This document shows, piece after piece, positions 37,744-64,000 of a stretch of 64,000 bases of DNA; within the stretch, counting starts at the first letter, position 1; each line of letters begins with the position of its first letter. Position numbers and translations under genes: made by a program. The notes under the pieces are model-generated. The model did not search any database and was not told where the DNA came from. It worked only from the letters and a program-made list of their open reading frames with translations. Source of the DNA: Acidobacteriaceae bacterium (lineage in GTDB: Bacteria > Acidobacteriota > Terriglobia > Terriglobales > Acidobacteriaceae); contig PKVW01000023.1 of NCBI GenBank assembly GCA_003131585.1, positions 28,555-92,554 on the forward strand. Reading direction: 5' to 3'.

Positions 37744-38562
37744 TCAATCGAACTGCCTTAGTTTAAACAATTCCAGGCCAACATTCCACACAAAAATGGG
37801 CCCCGAGACTAAGTATCGACGCCACAAGCGTTTAGGCTCCATAACCAGGCGGAACAGCCACTCCAGCCCATTTTCTCGCATCCACCGGGGCGCCTGTTGC
37901 AGCCTGCCGGTGTTGAGATCAAAAGCGGCGCCAACTCCGAACATGACGGGCGCAACCAGCTTGTCCCGATGCTGGTACATCCAGGTCTCCTGCTTGGGAG
38001 TGCTTAACCCAACCCAGACTACGTCCGCTTTTGAAGAGTTGATGATGTGGACTACTTCCCGGTCCTCCGCTTCCGTCAGCGGACGGAACGGCGGGCAGTA
38101 GGTGCCCGCGACCGACACGCCGTATCGCTCCTGCATGGCACGCGCCAGGCTGTCGGCCACGCCGGGTGCGCCTCCGTAGAAGAAATGCCGGTACTTGCCG
38201 CCCGTTTCGCGGCAGAAAGCGTCCGTCAGCTCGGGACCATACACGCGGCGGCGCATGTCATAACCGTGCCACCTGCCCAGCCACACCAGCGGCATGCCGT
38301 CGGCGACCACCAGGGAAGCCTGGTTCAAAACCGCCCGGAAGTTGAAATTACGGCAGGATTCGCTGATCCCGTGCATGCCCGTCACCGCAATGTAGTGCCC
38401 AGAATCGCGCGCGGCGATCCAGTTCTCGACTTGCGCGACAACGTCGGGAATCTGGACCGCGTCCACCCTGACCCCCAGGACCTTGAACGCAAGGCTTTGC
38501 CCGGAAGCAGATCGGCGGCCGATGCCGCGCTCAGAAACTGGTGAAGTCAATTCAGTAGGCAT
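37744..38562 (-). CDS. WecG/TagA/CpsF-family glycosyltransferase (GT26)
   Basis: The 272-residue protein fits the GT26 family, which transfers a sugar such as N-acetylmannosamine or its uronate onto an undecaprenyl-diphosphate-linked acceptor at the inner face of the membrane. Family blocks in order are VLGVRVDAVQIPDVV, HYIAVTGMHGISES, LVVADGMPLVWLGR, a YGPEL segment, FYGGAPGVA, ADVVWVGLSTPKQE and the C-terminal GVGAAFDLNTGRLQQAPRW. The TPKQE and GAAFD blocks are the family's most conserved parts. It is the last gene of the minus-strand EPS operon and follows the epimerase by 61 bases. A hydrophobic C-terminal segment (SGPIFVWNVGLELF) may sit on the membrane. The sugar donor is not certain. 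Confidence 0.82.
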   Translation of the reverse strand: MPTELTSPVSERGIGRRSASGQSLAFKVLGVRVDAVQIPDVVAQVENWIAARDSGHYIAVTGMHGISESCRNFNFRAVLNQASLVVADGMPLVWLGRWHGYDMRRRVYGPELTDAFCRETGGKYRHFFYGGAPGVADSLARAMQERYGVSVAGTYCPPFRPLTEAEDREVVHIINSSKADVVWVGLSTPKQETWMYQHRDKLVAPVMFGVGAAFDLNTGRLQQAPRWMRENGLEWLFRLVMEPKRLWRRYLVSGPIFVWNVGLELFKLRQFD

Positions 38563-38623
38563 AGAGACAATCCGTTGCCATCCGATCTGGAACGAACTAC
38601 TAGGGGGAGCTTTGCAGGCCCTC

Positions 38624-39631
38624 TCAAACCGTCGCCAGCCCCCTCAATTGGGCCGCATATTTCGGGGATTTACGGACCTCGGACTCAATCCATTTGTAGG
38701 TAATGGCCAGCCCTTGCTCCAGGCGAATGGAGGGTTCCCATCCCACCACGCTTCGCAACAAAGAATTATCGCTGTTACGGCCCCGCACGCCTTGCGGACC
38801 GGTCAGGTTGTGGGTCTTCTTCAAACGCTTGCCCGCGGCAGCCGAAACCATATCGACCAGGCCGTTGATGGTCACCAGCTCGTCGGTGCCCAGGTTGAGC
38901 GCGTCACGGCAGTCACTGGCCATGATGCGAATCAGGCCCTCGACGCAGTCGTCCACGTACATGAAGGATCGAGTCTGCTCGCCATCCCCCCAGATTTCGA
39001 TTTCGCCGCCGTTCTCGGCCAGCGCCACCTTGCGGGAAATGGCAGCGGGCGCTTTTTCCTTGCCGCCGTCATAGGTTCCGAGCGGGCCGTACACATTGTG
39101 GAAGCGCACGATGCGGGTTTCGAAACGGTAGTCTTTGTAGTAGTAGCGGCAAAGTTCTTCGGCAAAGAGCTTCTCCCAACCGTAGCCTGGCTCCGGATCG
39201 GCGGGGTAGGCGTCGGCTTCGGTGAGCGGCTTCACGTCTGGATCTTTCTGCTTGGCTTGGTTGTAAACACACGCCGAGGAAGAAAACAGGAAGCGCTTCG
39301 CGCCGTTCTGGCGGCCCGCTTCGAGCATATGGGCGTTGATGAGAATGTTGTTGCGGCTGATGTCGGCATGATTGGCGGTGATGTAACCGATCCCGCCCAT
39401 GTCGGCGGCAAGATTGAAAACTTGATCCATGCCGCCCCGTGTAGCCAGCAGGCAACAATCGGCCTTGCGCAAATCCTGGATCTCGAATTCGTCGGCCGCA
39501 CTGGCTTCATACTCCGGGTACTTGATGTCGACCCCGCGCACCCAATGGCCATCGGCCTTCAGACGCCGCACCAGATGGTGGCCAATAAACCCGCCCGCCC
39601 CCGTTACCAGGACTCGTTTTTGTATGCTCAT
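38624..39631 (-). CDS. GDP-mannose 3,5-epimerase family NAD-dependent epimerase
   Basis: The 335-residue protein is an extended short-chain dehydrogenase with GAGGFIGHH at the N-terminus. It closely follows plant GDP-mannose 3,5-epimerase motif by motif: NLAADMGGIGYI, SSSACVYNQ.KQ, YGWEKLFAEELC (catalytic Tyr and Lys), RFHNVYGPLGT, GGKEKAPAAISRK, IWGDGEQTRSFMYVDDCVEG and GPQGVRGRNSDN. That enzyme converts GDP-D-mannose to GDP-L-galactose and GDP-L-gulose. A role in making an unusual GDP-sugar for the exopolysaccharide is the natural inference. AAGGAG lies about ten bases before the ATG. Close family members epimerise other nucleotide sugars, so the exact substrate is probable rather than certain. 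No GDP-mannose-making gene is in the window. Confidence 0.8.
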   Translation of the reverse strand: MSIQKRVLVTGAGGFIGHHLVRRLKADGHWVRGVDIKYPEYEASAADEFEIQDLRKADCCLLATRGGMDQVFNLAADMGGIGYITANHADISRNNILINAHMLEAGRQNGAKRFLFSSSACVYNQAKQKDPDVKPLTEADAYPADPEPGYGWEKLFAEELCRYYYKDYRFETRIVRFHNVYGPLGTYDGGKEKAPAAISRKVALAENGGEIEIWGDGEQTRSFMYVDDCVEGLIRIMASDCRDALNLGTDELVTINGLVDMVSAAAGKRLKKTHNLTGPQGVRGRNSDNSLLRSVVGWEPSIRLEQGLAITYKWIESEVRKSPKYAAQLRGLATV

Positions 39632-39715: not shown

Positions 39716-41461
39716 TCAGGAAGCGCGCGCGCCGGCATGTTCTCCCGCGAGGACATGCGCCGCCGTGGCTTTTGACAGCAGAAAGTTTTCCATCACTAAA
39801 GCGTCGATGCCTGAGCAAAAGTAGCTCCGCACCGCATCGTGCGGACGAGCCACCAAAGGCTCGCCCGCAAGATTGAACGAAGTGTTCAACAGCATGGATG
39901 CCGGGGCAGCCTGGCCGAAGCGTTTGAGCAGATCCCAAAACAACGGATTGCTCCGCCGCGAGACCACGTGCAGCCGTACCCGTCCACCCGGTAGACAGAA
40001 ATCCGGCGGTATCACATCCACTCCCGCTCGCAGCGTGGCCAAAGAATTCATGGAGCGGCAAAGGTCCGACCATTCGAAATAAAGCGATGCGTCTTCTTCG
40101 GTCACCGAGATGGCGAAGGGCCGGAACCATTCGCGATGCTTGACGAAATCGTTGAGGTTTTCCCTGACATACGGAGCCCAGGGCGAAGCCAGCAAGCTGC
40201 GATTACCCAGCGCCCGCGGACCGAATTCCGTACGGCCCTGGAACCAGCCCACGATCTTGCCCGCTTGCAGCAGCCGCACCGTGGAATCGAACTTGCGCTC
40301 CGACGTGCTCTGCACGGCGTAGCGGGCCTTGGAGTTGTCCAGAATATCTTTGACGGCGTGGCGGCCGAAGCCCGGCCCCCAGTAGCTTCCGGGCATGACG
40401 TCGCAACGCTCCCGGTGTTTCTTTTGGTGCCAGGCCAGCATCGCCGCTCCTATGGCCGAACCCGAGTTGCCGGGTGCGGGCGGAACGAAAATCTGACTGC
40501 CGGCGAGCCTTTTTTCCAAGTCTGCGACCAACAGCACATTCTGAAAAAGCCCTCCACCCAGGCAAACCGCGGAGACGCCCCGGCGTTTACACTCGGATTC
40601 CAGCAGATCCCCTACGATCTCGGTACACGCCTGCTGTATGCTGCTGGCTAAGGCGCGGCGATGGTCATCGGCCAGCGGACCACCCTCTTCCGGGATACCT
40701 GCCTGACGATATAGCTTAGAGGAAAGCCGCAACCTCCCCGTGACTCCATGATCGAGATAGCTTGAGTCCACCCGGGGGAGGCGGGTGCGGGGGCCCCGCA
40801 GCATATTCATCAACACCGGTTTAAACAGCGGCTCGCCTTCCAGGCTGAGCCATTGCGTCTTGTGCTCTTCTTTCTGCGGCACAAAACCGAGCAGTTCGGT
40901 GATTCGCGAATAGACCCACGCCAGGGAATGGGGAAACGAGACCGTCTCCAGTACCCGGATGCCGGTCCCTTCGCCCAGAGCCAGCATGCCCGTGCGTCCG
41001 TCGCCGCTTTCATCGAGGGTCAGGATCAATGCCCGGTCGAAAGGAGACAGATAAAAAGCGCTGGCAGCGTGACACCGGTGATGATCGAGGCTGAGAAACC
41101 GGCACGGCGACGTGCCGTTCTTATGCCGCAGCACGCGGAAATGGCTGAGGTCGCGAGCCAGCCCTCCCAGTTCATTCGCCTGATAAAATCCGCCCGCCAC
41201 CGGGGCCAAGGGAAATGTGCTGCTTGCACCCCAGGAGCGGCGCGCCCAACCCATCACCGGACGAGTAGCCACGGCAATCGCATCCAAATCGTGCCATCCC
41301 AACCCAGCTTCCTCGAGGCAAAACTTAATGGCAGCTTCGGGCAGTCCCCGGCTTTGCGAGCGCGTCAGCTTGACATCCTCGACGGCGGCAACTACCTGGC
41401 CGTCGGCCAGGATTGCGGCTGAAGTATCGTGCCGGAATGATGAGAGTCCGAGGATTCGCAT
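39716..41461 (-). CDS. NodU/CmcH-type O-carbamoyltransferase
   Basis: The 581-residue protein has the family's N-terminal ASKHA-type half (ILGLSSFRHDTSAAILADG; SLDHHRCHAASAF with metal-ligand histidines; LTLDESGDG) and a YrdC-like C-terminal half (VGWFQGRTEFGPRALGNRSLLA; FRPFAISV; LLNTSFNLAGEPLV). The family transfers a carbamoyl group from carbamoyl phosphate, via carbamoyl-AMP, to a hydroxyl of a sugar, nodulation factor or antibiotic. In this locus it probably decorates the polysaccharide repeat unit or the NRPS product; the sequence cannot decide. It sits between the zinc-ribbon protein and the GDP-mannose epimerase, with short gaps and the same direction. Confidence 0.85.
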   Translation of the reverse strand: MRILGLSSFRHDTSAAILADGQVVAAVEDVKLTRSQSRGLPEAAIKFCLEEAGLGWHDLDAIAVATRPVMGWARRSWGASSTFPLAPVAGGFYQANELGGLARDLSHFRVLRHKNGTSPCRFLSLDHHRCHAASAFYLSPFDRALILTLDESGDGRTGMLALGEGTGIRVLETVSFPHSLAWVYSRITELLGFVPQKEEHKTQWLSLEGEPLFKPVLMNMLRGPRTRLPRVDSSYLDHGVTGRLRLSSKLYRQAGIPEEGGPLADDHRRALASSIQQACTEIVGDLLESECKRRGVSAVCLGGGLFQNVLLVADLEKRLAGSQIFVPPAPGNSGSAIGAAMLAWHQKKHRERCDVMPGSYWGPGFGRHAVKDILDNSKARYAVQSTSERKFDSTVRLLQAGKIVGWFQGRTEFGPRALGNRSLLASPWAPYVRENLNDFVKHREWFRPFAISVTEEDASLYFEWSDLCRSMNSLATLRAGVDVIPPDFCLPGGRVRLHVVSRRSNPLFWDLLKRFGQAAPASMLLNTSFNLAGEPLVARPHDAVRSYFCSGIDALVMENFLLSKATAAHVLAGEHAGARAS

Positions 41462-41808: not shown

Positions 41809-42957
41809 TTAATCTGCGGAGGCCGAATGAAAAGCTTTCTCCGGCTTGGGCAGATCCAATCTTGACCGCTTTAGGTTGCGATAGAGGCGCAACACGCCGA
41901 GCGGCGCGAAACAGTACAAGGACGCCACTGCGCGATCGAAAGCCCTGAGGCTGCGATAGATCAAGCGATCGCCGGTTCTCTCTATCCAGCCGGCCTGCCG
42001 GCTATCGGCGGAATCGGCATCCCGGCCGGGATATGCCGGCCACCGTCCGGCGAATTCTTCCCGCCAATAGTTGACGTAGCGCGCGATCTTTTTTTCGAGC
42101 GGCGGAGGCAGAATTTCTTCCCGCCGGCCTCCGGCCACGATCTGCTTTCCCTTGACCAGGGCGTGATGCTCCGCATCGTAAATCGCGGAGCGGTCGGCGC
42201 CTTCGAGAGAAACCATTCGAGGGTCGAAGGGAATCTCCAAAAAACGGCAGATGCCGGTCAAGACGCCGGCCGGATCGCGCACCATGTCCTCGTACTGCAA
42301 CTCGTAAACTTGCGCGCCCATCGCCGCCAGCCGCCCGGCTTCCCGCTTCATTTCCCGATACCCGAGCAGGGCCCGCAAGGACATGCCGCCCTTCGCAAAC
42401 CACGAAGACTTCTGCCCGGCGCGAATCACGCTGCTACAAATATCGGCGGGATTGCGATAGATGACAATGAAGCGTCCTGCGGGAAACTCCTTCGCCAGCC
42501 TGGTCATGCAGTCAAAATAGTTCGGCGATTTGCAACCCCAGATCGCCAGTCCCGCATGCTGGCGGTAGACCGACTCCATGGCCGCGCGCAGGCTCGGCAC
42601 TTCCGCCGGCAGAGCTCGCGTATCAATTTCGTGGCGGCTGAGCGCGCTATTCCAAAACTCCCATCGCTCCAGCCAATCGCGCTTGGCCTTGCCATTTCGA
42701 AAAAGGCGCCAGAGTAGCGGCAGATCGCCCTCATACATGAGCGCAATTTGAGGGTGCTGGTTCAGCAGGGCATACAACAAAGAAGTCCCCGAGCGCCACA
42801 TGCCCACCACAAATACGGGAGCGGCGGCGGTTGGAGCGGATTGAGTTTTGCGATTCTCTTTCACGGCCAAATCCCTTCGAATTGACATCGGGCGCGGCAG
42901 ACGATCTTCGCTCTTTTGCTCTTCGCGACTCGCCAAGTTCCCGCCGGTGAGGTTCAT
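41809..42957 (-). CDS. Sulfotransferase family protein of the EPS operon
   Basis: The 382-residue protein has a charged N-terminal extension (about 1-45), then the PAPS 5'-phosphosulfate loop VVGMWRSGTSLLYALL (about 50-65). The 3'-phosphate segment is RFIVIYRNPADICSSVIRAG, and YEDMVRDPAGVL is typical of the family. It probably sulfates a sugar hydroxyl of the lipid-linked repeat unit; this is inferred from its place in the operon. Its ATG overlaps the stop of the glycosyltransferase gene as ATGA, which suggests translational coupling. It is not obviously a recent copy of the sulfotransferase at 23901-24827: outside the cofactor loops the two differ widely. Confidence 0.78.
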   Translation of the reverse strand: MNLTGGNLASREEQKSEDRLPRPMSIRRDLAVKENRKTQSAPTAAAPVFVVGMWRSGTSLLYALLNQHPQIALMYEGDLPLLWRLFRNGKAKRDWLERWEFWNSALSRHEIDTRALPAEVPSLRAAMESVYRQHAGLAIWGCKSPNYFDCMTRLAKEFPAGRFIVIYRNPADICSSVIRAGQKSSWFAKGGMSLRALLGYREMKREAGRLAAMGAQVYELQYEDMVRDPAGVLTGICRFLEIPFDPRMVSLEGADRSAIYDAEHHALVKGKQIVAGGRREEILPPPLEKKIARYVNYWREEFAGRWPAYPGRDADSADSRQAGWIERTGDRLIYRSLRAFDRAVASLYCFAPLGVLRLYRNLKRSRLDLPKPEKAFHSASAD

Positions 42958-44213
42958 GCTCCACCCGGCTGGTTGCGAGAGCCGATAGCGGCCCGATAAA
43001 TGTCGATCAACTGTTCGTAGTTGCGGTCAGCCGTGTAGCGCGCTTCGAACTCGGCTCGCGCGGCGCGGGACATGGTTTCGATCTCTCCGCCATTACTCCA
43101 GGCCCATTCGACTTTTTGCGCGAGATCGTCCGCGTTCCCCGCTTCAAAGTGCAAGCCCGTGCTGCCGTCGGCCACAATGTCAGGCATGGAACCAAGCCGT
43201 GAAGCTATGACCGGAGTACCGCAGGCGAAGGATTCGGCGATCGTGACCGGAAAGCCTTCGTACCATTCACTGGGAAAGATCAGGAACTTCGCTCCCTGGA
43301 TCGCCGCCAGAGTTTCGGGCCGCGATAAGCGCCCGCGATATTGGACAGCGCTCAAGCCCTTGCCCGCCAACTCCGCCTCGAGTTGCGGCCGATAAGGGCC
43401 GTCGCCTGCAATCACCAGAGGAATGGGTTTGCTCAGTCGCTTCCAGGCGGCGAGCATGGTCGGCACTCCCTTCAGGTCGACGAGACGGCCCACGAAAATT
43501 GCATAGTCGCGGCTGCCCGTGCCTGGCCCCGGATCCGGAAGCACAAAGTTTGGTTTGACCACAATGCGATCCGCGGGCAGTCCGCCCTCGATAAATTTCC
43601 GGCGGGAAAACTCAGTTAGCGCGATGTAGCGGTTCACCGCTTCCGTCCAAGTATTCCGCTGACGATGAACTTTGAGCATCACAGCTGCAGTGGCCGTTCC
43701 CAGCCGCGAATCGCGATAACAGCCATGAATCACGCTGCGCTCCAAACCGTGGACCAGGCAGTCCTCGCAAACGTGGCCGTCGCGGTAAAAGGTCGCTCCC
43801 GGGCAGAGCAGCCGGTAGTTGTGCAGGGTTTGCACCACCGGAACCCCGGCATCGCGGCAGGCGTAGTAGATCGCCGGGGAGATAAGCGGGAAAAAATTGT
43901 GTACGTGCACCACATCCGGACGGATTTCGCTCAGGGTCGAACTGAAATCGTCGTGCCACGGTTTCGACCAGACGGCATTCACCGCGACTCGGACCTTACC
44001 GGCCACTCCGCGGGGGTAAGTCATTTCCTGGCTGATCGCCTGCACCCTGCAGCCGCGATCCTGCAGCAAGCGAGCCTCGGATTCGAAGACCTCATCCTCG
44101 CCGCCTCTCATCAAATAACGGTTGTGCACGGTGATGACGCTCAAGGGCTTGACGGAGGAGCGCGTGGGGGTGCGCTCCTCGGGACCACTCGTAAGTAGGG
44201 TTGAGACTGACAT
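42954..44213 (-). CDS. GT4-family glycosyltransferase (GT-B fold)
   Basis: The 419-residue protein shows the retaining GT4 pattern. The N-terminal acceptor domain starts near SVITVHNRYLMRGGEDEVF and includes PDVVHVHNFFPLISPAIY. The C-terminal donor domain has FVGRLVDLKGV, VIAGDGPYRP and the EX7E-like region FPSEWYEGFPVTIAESFACGTPVIASRLGSMPDIV. A cysteine cluster (CPGATFYRDGHVCEDCLVHG) is also characteristic of one GT4 branch. Such enzymes add sugars from nucleotide donors to the growing lipid-linked oligosaccharide on the cytoplasmic side. The start overlaps the O-antigen ligase stop by one base (TAATG). It is the only GT4 gene in the window, so more transferases are expected beyond its right edge. 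Confidence 0.85.
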   Translation of the reverse strand: MSVSTLLTSGPEERTPTRSSVKPLSVITVHNRYLMRGGEDEVFESEARLLQDRGCRVQAISQEMTYPRGVAGKVRVAVNAVWSKPWHDDFSSTLSEIRPDVVHVHNFFPLISPAIYYACRDAGVPVVQTLHNYRLLCPGATFYRDGHVCEDCLVHGLERSVIHGCYRDSRLGTATAAVMLKVHRQRNTWTEAVNRYIALTEFSRRKFIEGGLPADRIVVKPNFVLPDPGPGTGSRDYAIFVGRLVDLKGVPTMLAAWKRLSKPIPLVIAGDGPYRPQLEAELAGKGLSAVQYRGRLSRPETLAAIQGAKFLIFPSEWYEGFPVTIAESFACGTPVIASRLGSMPDIVADGSTGLHFEAGNADDLAQKVEWAWSNGGEIETMSRAARAEFEARYTADRNYEQLIDIYRAAIGSRNQPGGA

Positions 44214-45748: not shown

Positions 45749-45820
45749 GTTTGTTTTACTTTGAGTTTCCCTGGGCCGCAGGCGCAACTGAATACGGAGC
45801 GAGGACGGCCCCCGGAAACT

Positions 45821-55603: not shown

Positions 55604-55642
55604 CATCGCCTGCCGCAGTGGGGGGAGGCACTGCAAGACATC

Positions 55643-55684: not shown

Positions 55685-55940
55685 GCTTATTCAGCACAAA
55701 TCGTTCGATGCCGGCAATGCTTTCGAAGTTCTCGCCGACGATCTCTTCGTCTCCGATCCGCACGCGGAAGCTTTCTTCGAGGAAAGCTACCAGCCGGAAG
55801 ATCCCCAAAGAATCGATCACACCGCTCTCGACCAGCGATTGATCGTCGGTCACTTCGCTGACGCCCTTGCGCTGCGCCGCTTCCCGAACAAACTCGCGGA
55901 TCTGGTCCTTCACATTCACATTCTCGACTTGCTCGGTCAT
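55674..55940 (-). CDS. Stand-alone peptidyl carrier protein of the proline-to-pyrrole trio
   Basis: The 88-residue acidic protein has a single carrier fold with the phosphopantetheine site GVIDSLGIF (Ser44). The DSL form rather than GGHSL is typical of free acyl or aminoacyl carrier proteins such as PltL, RedO and PigG. Helix 1 (QIREFVREAA) and the later FESIAGIERFVLNKL are as expected. GGGAG lies about eight bases before the ATG. Upstream in the transcript are the adenylation enzyme that would load it and the flavoprotein that would oxidise the bound prolyl group. The next gene downstream is the leucine A-T didomain. It needs a phosphopantetheinyl transferase, which is not in the window. Confidence 0.85.
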   Translation of the reverse strand: MTEQVENVNVKDQIREFVREAAQRKGVSEVTDDQSLVESGVIDSLGIFRLVAFLEESFRVRIGDEEIVGENFESIAGIERFVLNKLNR

Positions 55941-56044
55941 TATTTACTCCCTATTTACGCCCTGGACTCGGTAGGTCCGGAAAACAACGAATGAAAGTCT
56001 CGCTACAATAAGAAAGTCTGGCGGACTATGCCGGCCAAAAAAAC

Positions 56045-57652
56045 TTATACCGGCTGCGGCTGGGTTCGCGACAGTTGAATCCGGTCGACCTTGCCGGTCG
56101 AGGTCTTGGGCAGGGTGTCGCGCAACTCGATCTGCTCGGGGATCATGTATTTCGGAATCCGCGTGGCGCAATGTTGCTGCAGCTCTTTCGCGCTCAAGGT
56201 TCCCGCGCTGTGCGGCGCCACAATTGCCTTAAGACGAGACCCCACTTCTTCGTCGGGAATGGCCAGGGCGGCCGCCTCGCGCACGCCCGGATGGCTGAGA
56301 AGCGCGGCTTCGATTTCTCCCAGTTCAATCCGGTAGCCGCGGCTTTTTACCATACTGTCGCGGCGGCCCACATAATAATAGTCTCCGTCCGCAGACAGGG
56401 TGACGATGTCACCGGTGCGGTACATCTTCTCTTCAAAATGCGGCTGAAAGCGGTTAGGCAGGCAAGCCTTGTTTGTTTTCTCCGCGTCCGCCCAGTATCC
56501 CGGCGTCACTGCCGGACCGCGGACGTGAAGCTCGCCTTCCTTGCCGCTCCCCGCAGCGACGATCTGATCGTTCTCATCTACGGCAAACACTTCGGTATTG
56601 GCGCATGCTTGTCCAATCGGCAGGCTAGTCATGCCATGCAACCGGTCGCGATCCACCCGGTGGTAAGTGCAAACGTTCGTCTCAGTCGGGCCGTACAGGT
56701 TGTAGAGTTCAACCTGCGGCAGCAGTTCCGCCAGTTGCCGCAGGTACTTCATGGCGAACACCTCGCCTGCGAACAGGACAATCCGGAGGCGAGGAAGATT
56801 CTCCGCCCGCAAGTTCCCGTGCAACAGCAACAGCACCAGAGCCGACGGAACCGAGTACCAGATGCTGATCTGACGGTCGCGGATGAAATTCGCCAGGCTG
56901 GCGGGAAACAGCGCCAAATCGTCGGTCACCATGTGCAGCGTGGCCCCGGCCTCGACGCTGTTGTAGACATCGAAGACCGAGAGATCGAAGTGCAGGGGCG
57001 CGTGGTTCGATAGATTGTCTTCCGCCGTCACCCGAAAAGTGTCCGCGCACCACTGCACAAACGTCAGCGCGTTCTGGTGCGTAAGCATCACACCCTTGGG
57101 CCGCCCGGTGGAACCCGAAGTATAGAGAATATAGGCCAGATCGGTCGTAACGTTCTGCACTGCCAGCTCGGTCGAGGGATACTCCGACAGCGCAGCCCAT
57201 GGCAGGTCGCGTTCAAAACTGCCATTCCCCGCCGCGCCCAGCAGGATGCTGAACTCGAGCGAGCGGAGCGCCGCTGAATCGAGCGCGTGCAAACGATCGC
57301 CGGTCGTGATCAGAACCTTAATCTGGCAGTTGCCGATGATGTACCCAATCCGCTCCGCCGGCGCTTGCGGGTCGAGGGGGACATACACGCCGCCCGCCTT
57401 GAGCACGCCAAACATTGCCGCCAGCGATTCCACCGACTTGGGGAAATACAAACCCACGCGATCGCCTTTTTTCAGGCCCCGCGCCAGCAGCAATTGCGCT
57501 AGTTGATTGGAGTGCTCGTCGAGTTCCCTGTAGGTCAGGGCTTTGCCGCGCGCGCAAACCACGGGCTTCTCCGGATAGCGCTTCGCGCTCGCACTCAGCA
57601 GTTGTTGTAGGACGTAAGCCAAGGTTCCCCCACTCCTGGACAAACTCGACAC
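56045..57652 (-). CDS. Stand-alone adenylation enzyme, predicted L-prolyl-carrier protein ligase (PltF/RedM/PigI-like)
   Basis: The 535-residue protein is one adenylation domain with no carrier. It has A3 YILYTSGSTGRPKG, FDLSVFDVYN, LYNLYGPTETNVCTYH, YRTGDIVTLSADGDYYYVGR and the Lys motif TSTGKVDR. The pocket read by eye is DLFYLALVCK. The code I recall for the proline ligases PltF and RedM is DLLYLALVCK, one residue different. The product would be prolyl-AMP, then prolyl-S-carrier protein. It lies between the flavoprotein (six bases) and the carrier protein (about 100 bases). The first codon is GTG 57652. A TTG at 57622 preceded by AGGAGTGGGGG is an attractive alternative that removes ten residues. 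Confidence 0.85.
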   Translation of the reverse strand: MSSLSRSGGTLAYVLQQLLSASAKRYPEKPVVCARGKALTYRELDEHSNQLAQLLLARGLKKGDRVGLYFPKSVESLAAMFGVLKAGGVYVPLDPQAPAERIGYIIGNCQIKVLITTGDRLHALDSAALRSLEFSILLGAAGNGSFERDLPWAALSEYPSTELAVQNVTTDLAYILYTSGSTGRPKGVMLTHQNALTFVQWCADTFRVTAEDNLSNHAPLHFDLSVFDVYNSVEAGATLHMVTDDLALFPASLANFIRDRQISIWYSVPSALVLLLLHGNLRAENLPRLRIVLFAGEVFAMKYLRQLAELLPQVELYNLYGPTETNVCTYHRVDRDRLHGMTSLPIGQACANTEVFAVDENDQIVAAGSGKEGELHVRGPAVTPGYWADAEKTNKACLPNRFQPHFEEKMYRTGDIVTLSADGDYYYVGRRDSMVKSRGYRIELGEIEAALLSHPGVREAAALAIPDEEVGSRLKAIVAPHSAGTLSAKELQQHCATRIPKYMIPEQIELRDTLPKTSTGKVDRIQLSRTQPQPV

Positions 57653-57658
57653 GATCGA

Positions 57659-58804
57659 TCAGAGCCCGTGCAGGCCGGCGATAATCATTTTCTGCACTTC
57701 CGTCGTACCGGAATAAATCGTTCCCGAAATCGCATCGCGCAGCTCGCGCTCGATCTGGAACTCGGTCATGTAGCCATAACCGCCGTGGATTTGAATGGCG
57801 TCCTGCGCGGTCTTGATGCAAGCTTCACTGACGAACACTTTGGCGATCGCAGCCTCCCGCAGAGGGTGCTTGCCCTGAGACTTCAGCCAGGCCGCCTTGT
57901 ACAGAAGCAAGCGGCTGGCCTCCAGACGTATGTCCATCTCCGCGATCTTGCCGGCCACGGCCGGAAACTTTCCAATCGGCTGGCCAAACTGCTTGCGGTC
58001 GGTGGCGTAGCTGGTGGAGGTTTCCAGCATGCGCTGCATCGCGCCCAAATGGCTGGCCAGAATGCAGATTCGCTCCCACTCCATCGAAGCGGTGAAAATG
58101 GCCGTGCCGCTGCCTTCCTTGCCGAGCAGGTTCTGGGCGGGCACTTCGCAGTCGGTGAATGCCAGTTCCGCCATGGGCGAAGTGCGCAGGCCCATCTTAT
58201 GAAGCTTCTTGCTGATGGAAAAACCTGGCGTGCCCTTCTCCACGATAAACGCGCTGATGCCGGCCGGGCCCTTCGCCGGATCCAGGTTGGCGAACACGAT
58301 GACCATATCCGCCAGTTGCGCGTTGGTGATGAAAGTCTTGCTGCCGTTGAGGATATAGCGATCACCCTTGCGTTCGGCTCGGGTCTTCAGACTGTACGCA
58401 TCCGAACCTGAGCCGGGTTCGGTCATGGCGTGGATTCCCACCCATTCCCCGCTTACCAGCCGGGGCAGGTATTGTTTCTTCTGCTCCTCGGTACCGAAGG
58501 AAAGCAGCGGAATCTCAGCGCTCCACATGTGCGCATTGATGGAGAAGATCAGCCCATTATCCCTGCAGCCATACCCGAGAGCCTCGAGGGCGCACACCGT
58601 GGTCAGAATGTCCGCCCCGCCGCCTCCGTATTCTTCCGGAATCGGCAGGCCCTGAATTCCGAATTTGGCGCACTTCTTCCAGCCTTCGCAGAAAAATTGC
58701 TCATTGCGATCGCGCTCAATCAGGTCGTCGTTGAGTTCCCCCTGCGCGAACTTGATCACTTCGCGCCTGAAAGCGTGCTGCTCGTCGGTCCAAGAAAAGT
58801 TCAA
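57659..58804 (-). CDS. Acyl-CoA dehydrogenase-like flavoprotein, predicted prolyl-carrier protein dehydrogenase (PltE/RedW/PigA-like)
   Basis: The 381-residue protein is a complete acyl-CoA dehydrogenase fold: N-terminal helices from NFSWTDEQHAFRREV, FAD-contact segment AMTEPGSGSDA (about 126-136), the KTFITNA strand, and a C-terminal DAIQIHGGYGYMTEF. At the catalytic Glu position of medium-chain enzymes (YEGT) it has YSGT, so that base is absent. Instead Glu244 in MEWERICILASHLG aligns with the base of isovaleryl-CoA dehydrogenase, the position also used by prolyl-carrier dehydrogenases. Next to a proline-type ligase and a free carrier it should carry out the oxidation of prolyl to pyrrolyl-2-carboxyl. 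The start is TTG with AGGAG 12 bases upstream. Alone it could be mistaken for a fatty-acid enzyme. Confidence 0.8.
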   Translation of the reverse strand: MNFSWTDEQHAFRREVIKFAQGELNDDLIERDRNEQFFCEGWKKCAKFGIQGLPIPEEYGGGGADILTTVCALEALGYGCRDNGLIFSINAHMWSAEIPLLSFGTEEQKKQYLPRLVSGEWVGIHAMTEPGSGSDAYSLKTRAERKGDRYILNGSKTFITNAQLADMVIVFANLDPAKGPAGISAFIVEKGTPGFSISKKLHKMGLRTSPMAELAFTDCEVPAQNLLGKEGSGTAIFTASMEWERICILASHLGAMQRMLETSTSYATDRKQFGQPIGKFPAVAGKIAEMDIRLEASRLLLYKAAWLKSQGKHPLREAAIAKVFVSEACIKTAQDAIQIHGGYGYMTEFQIERELRDAISGTIYSGTTEVQKMIIAGLHGL

Positions 58805-58828
58805 GGCGTGCGCTCTCTCCTGAAGGTT

Positions 58829-59461
58829 CTAAGAATTCCGCTGCGGCGCGGGCGCCGGCTTCTTGAAGCGCTGGGGGCGTCCCCCGCGCAAGCGGATGCG
58901 CGCGGGCACTCCGACAATCGTAGTGTTGTCGGGAACGTCGTTAAGCACCAGGCTGTTGGCCACGACCACCACGTTGTTGCCGATGGCGGCATCGCCGATC
59001 AACTTTGCTCCCGCCCCGAAATACACGTTATTCCCCACACCCCGGGAGCCGGCGGCAATCAGCACTCCGCTCTGCACCGTGCAGTTGTCGCCAATCTTCG
59101 TGCCGCCGACATTGATGCCGTATGTCGTGTGTACCACTAAGCCCGGCCCGATCTGAGCCTCTGCGCTGACGTAGGATCCTGTAAGCAAGCCTATGGCGCG
59201 CTGAAACGCCGCTCCCCCGGCTCGCAACAACTGACCGGCTACCGGCACGCGTACTCCCAGCGCCCAGTGATGAAAGCGGTAGGCTACGACCACTTGCGTG
59301 TTCAGGCGAAAGAAGGCGGAAATCTTTTCCGTCCGGTTCGGTTCGTGGCGTTCCAGATTCTTATCCAGCGCCGCCCGGCGCACATCGGCGCGCAGGTTCT
59401 CAAACCAGCCCCCGTTCCGGGCCGGCACAGCGGCAACATTGGTCTGCCCGGCTGCGCTCAT
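58829..59461 (-). CDS. Left-handed beta-helix (hexapeptide) acyltransferase, serine O-acetyltransferase-like
   Basis: From ATG 59461 the protein has 210 residues. An alpha-helical N-terminal part (NLRADVRRAALDKN ... SAFFRLNTQVVVAYRFHHWA) precedes imperfect hexapeptide turns: VSAEAQIGPGLVVHTTYGINVG, KIGDNCTVQSGVLIAAG, and GNNVYFGAGAKLIGDAAIGNNVVV. The HTTYGINVG segment holds the likely catalytic His. The C-terminus is basic and Pro-rich. The family transfers acetyl or other acyl groups from CoA or a carrier protein. In EPS loci such genes usually acetylate sugars, although a serine acetyltransferase cannot be excluded. Its ATG overlaps the glycosylphosphotransferase stop by four bases (ATGA). 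Confidence 0.78.
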   Translation of the reverse strand: MSAAGQTNVAAVPARNGGWFENLRADVRRAALDKNLERHEPNRTEKISAFFRLNTQVVVAYRFHHWALGVRVPVAGQLLRAGGAAFQRAIGLLTGSYVSAEAQIGPGLVVHTTYGINVGGTKIGDNCTVQSGVLIAAGSRGVGNNVYFGAGAKLIGDAAIGNNVVVVANSLVLNDVPDNTTIVGVPARIRLRGGRPQRFKKPAPAPQRNS

Positions 59462-60894
59462 GCCGCTCCCGAACCTCGCAGCACGGCCGGAATCGTGCGC
59501 AACAAAATCTTGAAGTCCAGCCACAGCGACCACCGGTCGATGTATTGCAAATCCAGCTCCATCCACTGCTCGAAAGCAATCGAACTTCGTCCTGCCACCT
59601 GCCACAGGCAGGTGATTCCCGGCTTCACGCTGAAGCGCCGCCGCTGCCAGTCCTCGCTGAAACCCTCGTAATCGCGCACCGGGAGCGGACGCGGCCCGAC
59701 CAGGCTCATGTCCCCTTTGAGCACGTTGAACAGTTGCGGCAACTCATCGATGCTGGTCTTTCTCAGAAATCTTCCCACTGGAGTAATGCGGGGATCATTC
59801 TTGATCTTGAATACCGGGCCGCTCACCTCGTTGAGGTGCTCGATCTCGCCCATCCTTTTTTCGGCGTCCGCCACCATGGTGCGGAACTTATAAATGTTGA
59901 AGCGCCGCTTGTTCCGCCCCAGCCGGTTTTGCTTGAACAGCACCGGTCCGTGTGAGGTCAGTTTGATCAGAATCGCGGTTACCAGCAGCGCGGGAGAGAT
60001 CAGCACAAGGAAAGCCGCTGAACCCACCAGGTCAACCGCCCGCTTCACCAACACCGGCCAGCCGTTGATTTGGCCGGTACGATGCGTGATCAGCGAGTCT
60101 CCCTCCCAATCTTCCGCGGACGAGCGCGCCAGCTTGAGATTGAAAATGTTGCTCAGTTGCCGGACGGTGATGCCCTGCTCCTCGCAGTAGGCCGCAATTT
60201 GCGAGGCCTCGAAGTACCGCGAGCGCATGGGCAGCGCCATCACCACTTCGTCCACAACACTGCTCCGGAGGAACTGGGAGACGCCCCCGAAATCGCACGC
60301 CAAGGCGAAACCGCTGTTGTGAAAAATGTCCATTCCCTGCCAGTTTTCGTCCACGAATCCGATGACCCGGTATCCGATCTCAGGATGGTTCACCAGTTTC
60401 CGCGCGAACTGGACCGCGCGTTGATTGGTGCCCACGATCAGGACATCGCGCAGGTTGCGCCCTTGCTTGCGGATCCAGGCCAGCACCATGCGCAAGCTCA
60501 AGCGGCTGGCGACCGTGGCGGCGGTGCTAATCGCCCAGAACGCTATGAGGAACCGAGGGGTTCCCATCTGAATCTGGAACAACGCGGACCCCGCCAGAAT
60601 GATCAGCGTTGCAAGAGAGGTAGCTTTCACCACGTCGAACACTTCGGCGTTGCGCCGGGAAAGCCGGCGCGAAGCGTATAGCCCAAACGCGCTCAGAACA
60701 AAATGCCAGGCCAGAAGGAACAGAAAGAAGATGGCAAGATTCTGGACCTTCACCCGCATGGAAAAAAACTCGGCCAGCGTGACTTTATGCCGGTCGAAGG
60801 CAATGGCCCCGGCCAGCAGGAACGCCAATACCATCAGCCCCAGATCGAACAACTTGAAGACATTGAGCAGGATCTTGCGGCGAACGTTACTCAT
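59458..60894 (-). CDS. Polyprenyl glycosylphosphotransferase initiating EPS synthesis
   Basis: The 478-residue protein has four N-terminal membrane segments (about 12-135), a CoA-binding-like cytosolic domain (DVLIVGTNQRAVQFARKL, about 150-165; IGYRVIGFVDE) and a fifth hydrophobic segment (LVGSAAFLVLISPALLVTAILI). The C-terminal catalytic domain has FKQNRLGRNKRRFNIYKFRTM, KIKNDPRITPVGRFLRKTSIDELPQLFNVLKGDMSLVGPRP and PGITCLWQVAGRS. This is the layout of WbaP/WcaJ-type enzymes, which transfer a sugar-1-phosphate (often glucose or galactose) to undecaprenyl phosphate as the first step of repeat-unit assembly. The DEL..L.NVLKGDMS motif holds the catalytic Asp-Glu pair. The sugar is not predictable from sequence. 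Confidence 0.88.
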   Translation of the reverse strand: MSNVRRKILLNVFKLFDLGLMVLAFLLAGAIAFDRHKVTLAEFFSMRVKVQNLAIFFLFLLAWHFVLSAFGLYASRRLSRRNAEVFDVVKATSLATLIILAGSALFQIQMGTPRFLIAFWAISTAATVASRLSLRMVLAWIRKQGRNLRDVLIVGTNQRAVQFARKLVNHPEIGYRVIGFVDENWQGMDIFHNSGFALACDFGGVSQFLRSSVVDEVVMALPMRSRYFEASQIAAYCEEQGITVRQLSNIFNLKLARSSAEDWEGDSLITHRTGQINGWPVLVKRAVDLVGSAAFLVLISPALLVTAILIKLTSHGPVLFKQNRLGRNKRRFNIYKFRTMVADAEKRMGEIEHLNEVSGPVFKIKNDPRITPVGRFLRKTSIDELPQLFNVLKGDMSLVGPRPLPVRDYEGFSEDWQRRRFSVKPGITCLWQVAGRSSIAFEQWMELDLQYIDRWSLWLDFKILLRTIPAVLRGSGAA

Positions 60895-60938
60895 GGCAGG
60901 GACTCACCCAGTCTTTCGGTTGCTATGAAGGATTTCAT

Positions 60939-60995
60939 CGCGGTTTCCGCGCCACCACAGCCTTCCTTCGCACGAGGAAGAAGTTGCGCGGAAAC
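60939..60995 (-). promoter_or_regulatory. Nested inverted repeats with alternative hairpins before the glycosylphosphotransferase gene
   Basis: On the transcript strand a perfect ten-base pair of arms, GTTTCCGCGC (60995-60986) and GCGCGGAAAC (60952-60943), encloses a second stem, CTTCCT with AGGAAG (60980-60975 and 60967-60962). The downstream arm can also form a local hairpin, CGCGG-AAA-CCGCG (60951-60939), which excludes the long stem. No T-run follows. The site could be a control point in the operon or a protein-binding palindrome. Confidence 0.45.
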
Positions 60996-61035
60996 GTAGA
61001 GTCGAGAATGGAAGGATGCGGAGATTCGGTTCGGG

Positions 61036-61797
61036 TTACAGACGGTCGTAAATACCTTGCGGAATAGGAAACGTACGCTGATTCAGCACGGCCCCCAGCA
61101 CTCTGATCTTGGCCCGTTCCAATTCGTGCATGGCCTTGCGGGCTGTCTCCCGGCGTGAAGAGTTGGCTTTGAGCACGAGTAGCAGACCGTCCGCAGCGCA
61201 TCCCAGCATCACGCCATCGTTGGAAGTGTTCAGGGCGGGAGCGTCGACCAGGACGTAGTCGAACTCCTGACGCAGTTCGACAATTCGCCTCTGCATGCGG
61301 TCGGAGCCGACCAGCGTTTGCCCTTCACTGCTTTCGGCGCCGCAACTCAACAACCATAGATTCTGCCGCACCCGCCGGACGAACCGGCGCACCGGACCGG
61401 AATCGCGGAGAGCGTCGGAAAGCCCATGATGGTTTTCCACCTGAAATTGCTGATGCAGGCCCGGAGCTGCCAGGTTGGCATCCACTACGCACACCGAAGC
61501 CGCAATCTGCGAGGCCAGGATCTCCGCCATGCGCGCGCTAATCCAACTGCTGCCGCTGCCTGCCTCAATGCTTGCGACCACCACGATGCGCGAAGTATCC
61601 GCTCCCGTGGCCAGGAATAGACGCTGCACCAGCTTGGTCAGTTCGTCTTTCTGCGCGGGTTGCGTTTCCAACTCGGGCGGACTGACCTCCATGGGTCGAA
61701 ATTCAACCGGTTCGGGCAACGCGATAGGCTCGGTGTCGGTCGAGAAGATGTCTTGTTCCTTCCCGAGTTTCTGAAGCAGTTCGAAATTTCGGCTCAT
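61036..61797 (-). CDS. CpsD/BY-kinase-like P-loop protein with a degenerate nucleotide site
   Basis: The 253-residue protein has the length and order of the cytoplasmic half of bacterial tyrosine kinases that pair with chain-length determinants. The Walker A region reads SIEAGSGSSW (76-85), where active kinases have the pattern PGEGKST. The catalytic Lys is replaced by Ser83 and the following Thr by Trp85. The A' motif VVDANLAAP has Asn108 where the second Asp is expected. A Walker B-like VLVDAPALN is kept. No tyrosine cluster is present at the C-terminus (IYDRL). ATP-dependent kinase activity is therefore doubtful, and a scaffold role for the EPS machine is more likely. It lies 57 bases behind the ExeA-like gene. 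Confidence 0.75.
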   Translation of the reverse strand: MSRNFELLQKLGKEQDIFSTDTEPIALPEPVEFRPMEVSPPELETQPAQKDELTKLVQRLFLATGADTSRIVVVASIEAGSGSSWISARMAEILASQIAASVCVVDANLAAPGLHQQFQVENHHGLSDALRDSGPVRRFVRRVRQNLWLLSCGAESSEGQTLVGSDRMQRRIVELRQEFDYVLVDAPALNTSNDGVMLGCAADGLLLVLKANSSRRETARKAMHELERAKIRVLGAVLNQRTFPIPQGIYDRL

Positions 61798-61854
61798 TCT
61801 AGTCCCTGGTTCCTTCTAATTCTGGGTTCGAAACGACCTGCCCGGCGGCTTGTT

Positions 61855-62976
61855 CTATTGCACGATTTCTTCCGGTCGTGACGGCGGCTTGCCGGCATTG
61901 GCATTTTGCTCCTGATCTTTCAAGGTCCGAACCACTTTCTGCATGTAGTCGCGGGCTTCGCGCGGGCTTATCGGCGCGAGCGTGTCGTTGCCTGGGTGCG
62001 GAGCGTTCCCCGCTCGCGATTTATAGCTTTGATCTGGCGACGGGGCTGGCACTGGCGCGGAGCGTGCCGCGGGAAATACAACCGGGGTTGAACGGTAGTT
62101 GTCACCCCCCCCGGAATCGAATGGTGAGTTCGATCCGTCGGATGCAGGCACATAATCTTGTTCTGCCAGCAGATGACGGATGTCAAGATCCTGCGCAACT
62201 TCTTCGACCGTCTCCAAATCGACGGTTCGTTTGCGGAGGGCAAAGGCCAGCGATAAAGAGTGAAAGCAGAGGTTGTTGATTCGGCGGGGGATCCCGGCGC
62301 TGAGCATTGCGATTCGGCTGACGGCCCGGGGATCAAACAGACGCCCGCCGGCATAGCCCGCCACTCGCAAGCGATGATCGATGAAGCGGGCCGTCGCCTC
62401 CGGCCCGAACGGTTTCAGGCTGCTGAAGCTGGCGATGCGCTGATGCAACTGGTTCAATCCCGGCTGGGCCAGCTTCTCCCCCAGTTCGGGCTGACCGGCC
62501 AGGATGATCTGCAACAGTTTGGCCTGTGGGGTTTCGAAATCCGAAAGCAGCCGCACCGTCTCCAGTACTGACGGGTCGAGGTTCTGCGCTTCGTCGATGA
62601 CGATGATGAAACGATTGCCGGCCCGCGCCTCTTGCTCCAGGCAGCGGTTGAACTGCTCGTGCATGTGGACGAAATCGCCGTCGCTCTCCAAACCCACCTC
62701 TGCCAGGAGGAAACGCATGAATTCGCGCGAGCTGCACTGGGTCTGAAACAAAAAGGCAGTCCGAGCGCGATTGCGGAATTTTTCCAGCAGGTGAAACAAC
62801 AGGGTAGTCTTGCCCATCCCCGGCTTGGCGATGAGGGCGAGGAATCCGCGGTTGGCTTCAATGCCGTAGAACAGCGACGCCAAAGCTTCGCGGTGCCCGT
62901 CCCCCAGATACAAGTATCGGGGATCGGGAGTAACGCCGAAAGGCTGCTCGCGCAGTCCAAAAAATTGCTTAAACAT
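61855..62976 (-). CDS. ExeA-like AAA ATPase of the EPS locus
   Basis: The 373-residue protein begins with the family block FFGLREQPFGVTPDPRYLYLG, followed by Walker A AKPGMGKTTLL (Lys56) and Walker B FIIVIDEAQNL. A sensor-like LLSDFETPQAKLLQIILAGQPEL follows, then a winged-helix-like region (ISRIAMLSAGIPRRINNLC). The C-terminal 100 residues are low-complexity and Pro/Ser-rich. Proteins of this type are found in EPS loci, including PEP-CTERM/exosortase-associated ones, next to chain-length determinants, where their precise task is unclear. Unlike the neighbouring P-loop protein, all nucleotide-binding residues are intact. No exosortase gene or PEP-CTERM signal was found in this window, so a link to that system is not claimed. 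Confidence 0.8.
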   Translation of the reverse strand: MFKQFFGLREQPFGVTPDPRYLYLGDGHREALASLFYGIEANRGFLALIAKPGMGKTTLLFHLLEKFRNRARTAFLFQTQCSSREFMRFLLAEVGLESDGDFVHMHEQFNRCLEQEARAGNRFIIVIDEAQNLDPSVLETVRLLSDFETPQAKLLQIILAGQPELGEKLAQPGLNQLHQRIASFSSLKPFGPEATARFIDHRLRVAGYAGGRLFDPRAVSRIAMLSAGIPRRINNLCFHSLSLAFALRKRTVDLETVEEVAQDLDIRHLLAEQDYVPASDGSNSPFDSGGGDNYRSTPVVFPAARSAPVPAPSPDQSYKSRAGNAPHPGNDTLAPISPREARDYMQKVVRTLKDQEQNANAGKPPSRPEEIVQ

Positions 62977-62984
62977 AGGGTGGC

Positions 62985-64000
62985 CTAGCGAATCTGTACT
63001 GGGTGAGCAACATGGTCGTCGCTGAAGGGCTGTTCGCTCGAATGGGAACCGTTTCCGTTTCCGTTTCCGTTGCCGCTATGGGCGTGCCGTGGCACGGCGG
63101 CCAAGACCGGGATTCCCAACTCTGCGATGACTTCTCCAGGCGTGCGGAAAGATTGATCCATGTATTCCAAGGTGAAGGCCGCGGTCACGCTAGTCACCGA
63201 GGCCAAAACCATCCCAATCAACCCGAAAAGCCATGCTGAGCGGGAGGGCAGAACCGGCACCACCGGCGCTTGGGCGACGACGATGTTGAGGATGTTGGAT
63301 TGATCGAGAGCGTCGGCGATGCGCGCCTCCTCCTGCTTCTTCCGGTAAAGCAGGTAGGTTTCTTCGTTGGCTTTCTGGGTGCGCAACAAGTCCTGCTGCG
63401 CCAGGCCCTTTTCATCCAGCGCCTTCGCATTTGAGGCATAGAGGTTCACGATAGCCTGGGTCGCCGTCTCACGGGCTTGCAAACCGCTCAGGTCCGCTCT
63501 GGCCTTGGACAGTTCCGAGTTAATCCAGGCATAGGTGGGATTCTGATCGGTGGTTTCCTCGTTGAGCGGCAACCCTTCCTCTTTCGCCAAAGTCGCGCGC
63601 GTATCCGCGATCTGCTTGTCCACTTCAACCACCAAAGGATACGTGGTCTGATATTTGGTCAGCAGTTCCGTGCGCTTCAGCTCCAGAGTCATCAGCGTAC
63701 CCTTGAGTTGTTCCAGCACCTGCGCGCTGTCGCCCTTCTTAACTTGCGTCGTCATGCGCGTCGGAGTCAGCTTCTCTTGCGCGCCCAAGTCCTGGATCCG
63801 CTTCTCGGCCTCTTTAATCTGGGCCCGGGTCGATTGCAGACCGCTGTTGAATTCCGCCAGTTTCTGCAGGGTTAAGTCGCGCATCACCGAGGGCGCAACG
63901 CCTCCCAGCTCGCTATCAAATTGCTTGAGGCGCTCCTCGGCGTCTCCCAGCGCCTTGCGGTATTGCTCGGTTTCTTGTTCAAAGAACTGCACCTGCCCCG
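62985..64000 (-). CDS. Polysaccharide chain-length determinant (Wzz/GNVR type), 5' end outside window
   Basis: The reading frame stays open through the right edge (…GQVQFFEQETEQY), so the GTG at 63992 is probably internal. The visible part is a long coiled coil (FFEQETEQYRKALGDAEERLKQFD; LKRTELLTKYQTTYPLVVEVDKQI), then a membrane-proximal region and one transmembrane segment (SAWLFGLIGMVLASVTSVTAAF). After it comes the short cytoplasmic part EYMDQSFRTPGEVIAELGIPVLAAVPR, the usual hinge to a BY-kinase. The C-terminus carries a (GN)4 linker and ends HPVQIR. Such proteins set polymer length together with Wzy and form part of the export complex. The kinase domain is a separate gene here, and it is degenerate. 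The ExeA-like gene follows after eight bases. Confidence 0.82.
   Translation of the reverse strand, partial: GQVQFFEQETEQYRKALGDAEERLKQFDSELGGVAPSVMRDLTLQKLAEFNSGLQSTRAQIKEAEKRIQDLGAQEKLTPTRMTTQVKKGDSAQVLEQLKGTLMTLELKRTELLTKYQTTYPLVVEVDKQIADTRATLAKEEGLPLNEETTDQNPTYAWINSELSKARADLSGLQARETATQAIVNLYASNAKALDEKGLAQQDLLRTQKANEETYLLYRKKQEEARIADALDQSNILNIVVAQAPVVPVLPSRSAWLFGLIGMVLASVTSVTAAFTLEYMDQSFRTPGEVIAELGIPVLAAVPRHAHSGNGNGNGNGSHSSEQPFSDDHVAHPVQIR
63051..63074. repeat. Four hexanucleotide repeats in the chain-length gene
   Basis: GTTTCC occurs three times and GTTGCC once in tandem. On the minus strand they encode the Gly-Asn repeat of the cytoplasmic tail. The array is prone to slippage in whole-codon steps, so length changes would not shift the frame. 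Confidence 0.8.

Follow-up and report, generated by a model that had tools for sequence, protein, structure and literature searches.

Nonribosomal peptide synthetase and prolyl-oxidation genes within a Wzx/Wzy-type exopolysaccharide locus of Acidobacteriaceae suggest peptide or pyrrole-like decoration of its sugar units

The glycan that a Wzx/Wzy-type exopolysaccharide (EPS) pathway holds in the cytosol is the lipid-linked unit prior to flipping, and the intermediates of nonribosomal peptide synthetases (NRPSs) are likewise cytosolic and carrier-bound. Where bacterial polysaccharides bear amino acids or peptides, these are usually credited to amide ligases or Dlt-type systems. Here, we analyzed a 64,000-nucleotide stretch from an Acidobacteriaceae bacterium (contig PKVW01000023.1, positions 28,555 to 92,554, or G000:C17:28555-92554, in a genome of 3.93 Mb; hereafter the window), in which NRPS genes follow the initiating sugar transferase of an EPS locus and precede its flippase-like gene, an arrangement that suggests peptide or pyrrole-like decorations on the sugar units of the polymer.

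Four described systems come closest to this locus. With the Wzx/Wzy EPS pathways of the colanic-acid or EpsZ type it shares the initiating transferase, Wzy_C, Wzz, Wza, a BY-kinase-like protein and the GT4 and GT26 glycosyltransferases, and its sulfo- and carbamoyltransferases were also counted towards this likeness; unlike them, it places a prolyl cassette and NRPS modules after the initiating transferase gene and ahead of the Wzx-like one, and its flippase candidate goes unrecognized by family models. In aminocoumarins, the pyrrole-2-carboxyl group is made by CloN4, CloN5 and CloN3 and moved to the sugar with CloN7 (PMC11218499). The present locus resembles the CloN set (CloN4/N5/N3, CloN1/N2, CloN7) in holding a Pro-type ligase, a stand-alone peptidyl carrier protein (PCP), a prolyl-PCP dehydrogenase and a putative acyltransferase, whereas its acyltransferase is of the hexapeptide family and its setting is an EPS locus, the likeness being one of gene kinds. 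The adenylation (A) domain, carrier and dehydrogenase recall AnaC, AnaD and AnaB of anatoxin biosynthesis as a set, AnaB being the closest solved dehydrogenase; in anatoxin, however, a polyketide is assumed to be built on the pyrroline-5-carboxyl unit (PMC3252866), and no polyketide synthase domain is among the Pfam matches of the run analyzed here. Finally, cytochrome P450 hydroxylation of a PCP-bound amino acid is described for NikQ with histidine and, as a proposal, for PlyR with leucine (PMC3943440); here too an A-PCP protein with a Leu-type code lies beside a P450, which differs from that scheme in being fused to the next NRPS module. Among titles and the beginnings of abstracts, with subscription journals largely missing, no paper on NRPS modules inside a Wzx/Wzy EPS locus was found, and the available parts of PMC8692599 and PMC12935467 mention no such locus.

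The first-pass annotation, made from the letters of the window, had read a single minus-strand run of about 19 genes at 37744-64000 that joins EPS and NRPS genes. Open reading frames (ORFs) and family matches bear out the joining and the single strand; they count 18 genes in window 37744-64000, an 88-residue carrier protein recovered from a gap included, and carry the same strand past 64000 to window-equivalent 70926, through the rest of Wzz, Wza, a NusG-like protein, a methyltransferase, a second carbamoyltransferase and a GDSL protein. Transcribed from the right edge, the genes are Wzz, an AAA ATPase, a BY-kinase-like ATPase, the initiating sugar transferase and the hexapeptide acyltransferase, followed by the prolyl-PCP dehydrogenase, a stand-alone A enzyme, the stand-alone PCP, the A-PCP and an NRPS that fuses a P450 to condensation (C), A, PCP and thioesterase (TE) domains (P450-C-A-PCP-TE), and then by the Wzx-like, GH10, Wzy_C, GT4, sulfotransferase, carbamoyltransferase, GDP-mannose 3,5-epimerase and GT26 genes (Table 1). 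Intergenic gaps range from -4 to 141 bp, apart from the 347 bp that separate the sulfotransferase gene from that of the carbamoyltransferase, and four gene pairs overlap; on both strands of 45000-64000, promoter-like sites (3 against 4.7 expected from shuffles) and terminator-like sites (13 against 20.1) show no excess. The run has an operon-like layout, and its order of initiation, acyl and aminoacyl modules, flippase and polymerase fits a decoration that would take place before flipping.

The association of the two gene sets was compared with that of other NRPS loci in a family sample of 200 genomes from 79 genera. Ten EPS marker hidden Markov models (HMMs), built from the compared loci and scored above 40, were applied to stretches of at most 20 kb around P450-NRPS and control loci picked by hand among the matches listed in the family NRPS search, several stretches being shorter (from 7.9 kb in the P450 arm and from 10.7 kb in the control arm). 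Among those matches listed, at least two EPS markers were found at 16/25 P450-NRPS loci versus 1/40 other NRPS loci, and at least one at 20/25 versus 5/40. Two loci (G014a and G045) had entered the P450 arm for reasons other than a P450 row, and without them the comparison stands at 14/23 versus 1/40 (Fisher p = 3e-7); counting the P450 loci by genus gives 7/11 against the 40 control loci (p = 2e-5). The loci are related by descent, and the EPS label needs 3 changes on their tree against a mean of 7.6 in shuffles. Near the P450, at least two EPS markers occur in 9 of the 13 family genera examined. Recurring in other genomes and genera, the arrangement is not a matter of chance.

Locus maps made by tblastn on 22 relatives, and later extended to 42 maps including the window, place same-strand NRPS genes among EPS genes in ten genomes (G143, G006, G010, G126, G077, G161, G123, G176, G022 and G045); in four of these (G143, G006, G010, G123), the prolyl cassette and the NRPS stand on either side of the initiating transferase. 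At 1e-40, 22 family genomes show a Wzx homologue, and its surroundings, examined in all of them, hold an NRPS gene in 15, at some distance from Wzx in G161 (~36 kb), G069 (~17 kb) and G073 (~8 kb), and only the prolyl cassette in one (G105); three contigs of 4-8 kb (G057, G178, G127) are too short to judge.

Within the genus, 45 genomes were sampled: 32 have Wzx, 27 the P450, 25 the dehydrogenase (at only 52-56% in G488 and G492) and 23 the acyltransferase. The TE rows kept for measuring distances were those on Wzx contigs plus some best rows, and by these a same-strand A-PCP-TE module lies at most 2 kb from Wzx in 27 of the 32 Wzx genomes; in the remaining five it is ~36 kb (G161) or 12 kb away (G474), on another contig (G506) or absent from the Wzx contig (G496, G473). 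Eight Wzx genomes have no P450 row, and in five of these the TE module is still within 2 kb. Seen from the P450, Wzx lies on the same strand within 6 kb in 19 of 27 genomes and at 48 kb in one (G161); of the other seven, four have it on a different contig and three lack a Wzx row. Twenty further genus stretches comprise 13 with at least two EPS core markers, two with one (L151, L167) and five with none. The co-occurrence of P450-NRPS and EPS genes that the first-pass annotation had proposed to check is confirmed by both the genus and the control comparison, and the absence of the NRPS block from otherwise alike EPS loci, which it had named as counter-evidence, is for the most part not what the genus shows and is seen in more distant loci (G054b, G135b, G154b). 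The gene content, the intact motifs, the operon-like layout and the conserved co-localization are direct observations, and the coupling of NRPS and EPS genes is well supported. In a phylum sample, the P450 is present in 10/297 genomes, seven of them beyond the family, and among four relatives found by a search of genome contigs, only Spartobacteria L006 (47%) covers most of the query, with no second A domain recognized. One further 62% P450 relative, L169 (G176:C94:11647-12888), has no other gene recognized by the HMMs in the 20 kb read.

Table 1. Genes of the minus-strand run within the window and the evidence for each
Feature	Position	Strand	Evidence
WecG/TagA/CpsF glycosyltransferase (GT26)	37744..38562	-	PF03808 202 bits
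GDP-mannose 3,5-epimerase	38624..39631	-	PDB 2c59 GME 358 bits; the five PDB matches at 1e-40 all GME
NodU-type O-carbamoyltransferase	39716..41461	-	PF16861/PF02543
Sulfotransferase	41809..42957	-	PF13469 126 bits
GT4 glycosyltransferase	42954..44213	-	PF00534 110 bits
Wzy_C / O-antigen-ligase-like polymerase	44213..45787	-	PF04932 45.8 bits vs cut-off 31.7; 12 hydrophobic segments
GH10 glycosidase	45821..46888	-	PF00331 189 bits; 1xyz alignment; both catalytic Glu motifs present
Wzx-like flippase candidate	46904..48292	-	10 hydrophobic segments; position; weak homology
P450-C-A-PCP-TE NRPS, A code DIEDIGTVI	48342..53735	-	Pfam; motifs; code
A-PCP, A code DAWFLGNVV (exact start uncertain, alternative starts exist)	53735..55636	-	Pfam; code
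Stand-alone peptidyl carrier protein, 88 aa	55674..55940	-	Found in a gap; DSL motif; homologues in relatives' prolyl cassettes
Stand-alone adenylation enzyme, proline-type code DLFYLALVC	56045..57652	-	6o6e 383 bits
Prolyl-PCP dehydrogenase	57659..58804	-	PDB 4irn 471 bits, next 324; NCBIfam RedW/PigA 427 bits
Hexapeptide acyltransferase, 210 aa	58829..59461	-	PF00132; ATG at 59461 most likely start
Initiating polyprenyl-phosphate sugar-1-phosphate transferase	59458..60894	-	PF02397 242 bits; TIGR03025 435 bits, cut-off 295.6
BY-kinase-like ATPase	61036..61797	-	TIGR01007 87 bits, under cut-off 108
AAA ATPase resembling XrtA-associated ATPase	61855..62976	-	TIGR03015 227 bits, under cut-off 324.5
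Wzz chain-length protein, C-terminal part, cut by window end	62985..64000	-	TIGR03007 107 bits on window part

The EPS side of the locus is of the Wzx/Wzy type, as family models over their cut-offs recognize the sugar-1-phosphate transferase, the Wzy polymerase, Wzz (526 residues in full, L010:1540-3120; PF02706 26.3 against 25.5) and Wza (PF02563 56.9 against 28). Assignment to the XrtA/PEP-CTERM EPS class was rejected, its models staying under their cut-offs (TIGR03015 227/324.5, TIGR03007 107 on the window part/279, TIGR03018 84/231). The first-pass calls of GT26, GDP-mannose 3,5-epimerase, carbamoyltransferase, sulfotransferase, GT4, polymerase and initiating transferase hold, whereas its flippase is by sequence only Wzx-like. 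Ten Wzx-like rows were scanned with Pfam, and PF13440 matched one of them, at 3e-4; the ten include one wrong ORF (L083:519-1853), from which the Beta_helix and NosD matches most likely come. The GH10 xylanase-family gene, absent from the first-pass gene list, also belongs to the run.

On the NRPS side, the A, C, PCP and TE domains are present and the motifs are in place (C, HHIIFDG; TE, GLSFG with GDH; PCP, GGHS; P450, FGYAAHFCFG), and two phosphopantetheinyl-transferase-family genes lie elsewhere in the genome. All A-domain substrates named here or considered (Leu, Pro, basic, Gly, Ser, beta-Ala) are putative and assigned by their codes. The A-PCP is readable at 23 of the 25 P450 loci, with the code DAWFLGNVV, which we take to be that of leucine, at 21, EAWFLGNVV in G010 and a truncated code in G077. 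The A domain beside the PCP-TE reads DIE[DNS][IV]GT in 12 genomes including the window, and its acidic pocket residues would presumably, if not surely, suit a basic substrate; the corresponding module beside Wzx in G190 reads DILQLGMIW. The closest solved P450s are BioI and PksS, which act on carrier-bound substrates. Together, the A-PCP and the P450-C-A-PCP-TE are predicted to make a hydroxylated Leu-X dipeptide. Near Wzx, the A-PCP-TE lacks a C domain in G022, G045, G077 and G190, and since activating one amino acid merely for hydrolysis would be idle, it is likelier that the residue is handed on to a different molecule, or is modified while on the carrier and then released. A further C-A-PCP-TE NRPS with the code DSAL[IV]AEVW was observed in the EPS loci of G123, G176, G161, G022, G045 and G077.

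The prolyl oxidation cassette is complete in the window, as judged by similarity and code, with a Pro-specific ligase, a carrier and a prolyl-PCP dehydrogenase. The best single-domain PDB match of the stand-alone A enzyme, 6o6e, is an L-proline--[L-prolyl-carrier protein] ligase, and its code DLFYLALVC, presumably a proline code, is read at 11 of the family's 13 dehydrogenase loci, DLLYLALVC standing in a twelfth (G075); no Pro-type A domain was seen in the thirteenth (G092), and three A domains grouped by HMM with the Pro-type (those of G022 and G077 and the second of G112) have other codes. RedW and PigA members make pyrrole, and the dehydrogenase scores below the cut-offs of these two models (650/500). 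Its best solved relative, 4irn, is a prolyl-ACP dehydrogenase, which we take to be AnaB. AnaB yields a pyrroline-5-carboxyl carrier (PMC3252866). A pyrrole, which the first-pass annotation had named as a possible decoration, may plausibly be the product of the cassette, although the closest solved dehydrogenase stops at pyrroline. In two relatives (G105 and G049), the cassette and the acyltransferase lie beside Wza, Wzz and BY-kinase genes, the 40 kb read contain no P450-NRPS, and a flavin-dependent-halogenase-like gene with WVWQIP (L071:4828-6192 in G105; G049:C33:227810-229195) adjoins the cassette; the G105 gene is CmlS-like (PF04820), the WxWxIP motif is, we assume, that of halogenases, and a pyrrole would accordingly be favored there.

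The hexapeptide acyltransferase keeps close to the dehydrogenase. First-pass annotation had called it correctly and given it 258 residues; 210 are likelier, as its ATG overlaps the stop of the initiating transferase as ATGA. It lies at most 262 bp from the dehydrogenase in 22 of the 23 genus genomes that have it, and its nine occurrences among the 200 family genomes all fall within the ten that have the dehydrogenase at 71% or more.

The P450-NRPS also occurs in EPS loci without the dehydrogenase (G126, G022, G045, G077), so that the prolyl cassette and the P450-NRPS, each found without the other in the stretches read, look like two separable modules and not one pathway. The "hybrid" locus of the first-pass annotation hence stands insofar as NRPS and EPS genes belong together, and gives way insofar as it implied a single pathway. 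That a C domain uses up the prolyl unit was considered and rejected, since C domain and cassette do not co-vary across loci.

Based on these findings, we lean slightly towards the view that NRPS-type chemistry decorates the repeat unit of a Wzx/Wzy-type EPS while it is still in the cytosol, and covalent decoration of the glycan, one of the two possibilities in the first-pass annotation beside joint export, seems the likelier case. The substrates and each enzymatic step are those predicted from sequence families, and we infer both that the glycan is the acceptor and where each step takes place. First, the initiating transferase, GT4 and GT26 would build an undecaprenyl-linked oligosaccharide. 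The prolyl cassette could load proline onto the carrier protein and oxidize it to a pyrroline or pyrrole-2-carboxyl thioester, from which the hexapeptide acyltransferase may move the acyl group to a sugar hydroxyl or amino group. The Leu-type A-PCP and the P450-C-A-PCP-TE would make a Leu-X dipeptide, probably hydroxylated and with X perhaps a basic residue, which the TE could release onto the glycan. Upon decoration, the sulfated and carbamoylated unit would be flipped by the Wzx-like protein, then polymerized and exported. A broader version, which we hold as tentative and a little short of an even call, is a widespread EPS class in which a TE-placed Leu-X and an acyltransferase-placed, in some species halogenated, pyrrole-2-carboxyl group are added to the lipid-linked oligosaccharide before Wzx flipping, with the TE as glycan transferase and the carrier protein as donor of the acyltransferase.

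Several observations weigh against decoration. Even at E = 1, Pfam has no match for the window Wzx-like protein, whose identity as Wzx is weak by sequence; the TE could simply hydrolyze its substrate to a free peptide; and the acyltransferase has its best PDB match at 46 bits and could be an ordinary acetyl-CoA enzyme because of its weak similarity to serine acetyltransferases. The tenth family genome with the dehydrogenase (G069) has a C-A-PCP-TE adjoining it in place of the acyltransferase. In addition, no NRPS gene lies in the stretch read of three family Wzx loci (G054b, G135b, G154b; Wzx 42-44%), no EPS marker in five of the 25 P450-NRPS loci (G082, G051, G154a, G094, L006), and none in the five markerless genus stretches (L164, L168, L169 and two fragments under 4 kb); for Spartobacteria L006, no EPS family is found among the 10 flanking proteins scanned either.

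Some of these points would be expected if the NRPS and prolyl genes made a free diffusible molecule, such as a dipeptide-type inhibitor, a signal or a pyrrole compound, that is expressed along with the EPS and stays in the matrix or is released with it, not covalently attached. With its GxSxG and GDH motifs present, a TE is able to set a peptide free, the further C-A modules carry different codes at different loci, and the P450-NRPS stands without EPS markers in the stretch read at the five control-comparison loci just named and at L164 and L168. We nevertheless regard a free molecule as unlikely: the genes are interleaved on the same strand with the initiating transferase and the Wzx-like gene across many genomes, the Pfam matches of the run proteins scanned include no dedicated exporter (no ABC, MFS or RND), and some EPS loci have the prolyl cassette but no P450-NRPS in the stretch read. 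The proximity of the A-PCP-TE to Wzx in the 27 of 32 genus genomes, and a window Wzx-like protein that Pfam does not recognize, would also suit a lipid-linked, glycopeptide-like small molecule whose peptidyl-oligosaccharide is exported by the Wzx-like protein in place of a polymer substituent; this seems quite improbable, given that the run (Wzy_C, Wzz, Wza, BY-kinase-like) and many relatives' loci carry polymer-export parts. A chance neighborhood or recent insertion of an ordinary NRPS cluster, for which one could cite the commonness of NRPSs in the family (83/200 genomes with a match at 1e-100) and the GC content of the block (0.59-0.62, slightly above the 0.56-0.60 of the window's first 36 kb), is hardly credible, being already contradicted by the control comparison, the genus distances and the nine of 13 genera, and the EPS genes flanking the block have its GC content.

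If decoration of this kind is true, an amino-acid- or peptide-bearing polysaccharide made via NRPSs would join natural-product assembly lines with capsule and EPS building, and two gene pairs, the TE with the Wzx-like gene and the acyltransferase with the dehydrogenase, offer themselves for testing. It would also follow as a search rule that NRPS clusters near Wza, Wzz and PHPT genes may not make free small molecules, which would affect how biosynthetic gene clusters are counted.

Other features of these loci were noted. Polysaccharide deacetylases were considered as an NRPS-specific clue and rejected: NodB/HfsH-like genes adjoin the NRPS in G123, G176 and G077 (PF01522) and in G045, G022 and G161 (NCBIfam), and homologues lie also in EPS loci without a neighboring P450-NRPS (G105, G049, G054b, G135b), so that they look like a feature of EPS loci; none was found in the window's run. 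In G029, G054a and G135a (L049-L052, L059-L060), the P450-NRPS unit lies near sugar genes of another type, with initiating-transferase pieces in all three; its surroundings hold a GHMP kinase, an SIS isomerase, Wzy_C and an asparagine synthase in G029, and Wza/Wzz-like and NusG-like genes in G135a. The NusG-like gene beyond the window end (L010:4379-4942, window-equivalent 65824-66387) lies upstream of Wza and Wzz, and homologues are found in 17 of the 42 locus maps, the window counted; NusG-like genes accompany long operons under RfaH/LoaP-type antitermination, and this one is possibly an operon-specific antiterminator. Directly downstream of the locus, at window 31750-34989 and 35125-37554, lie Choice-of-anchor-D / FG-GAP / HYDIN-Ig repeat proteins, and homologues (41-57%) of the first of them adjoin the EPS locus in G143, G006 and G010.

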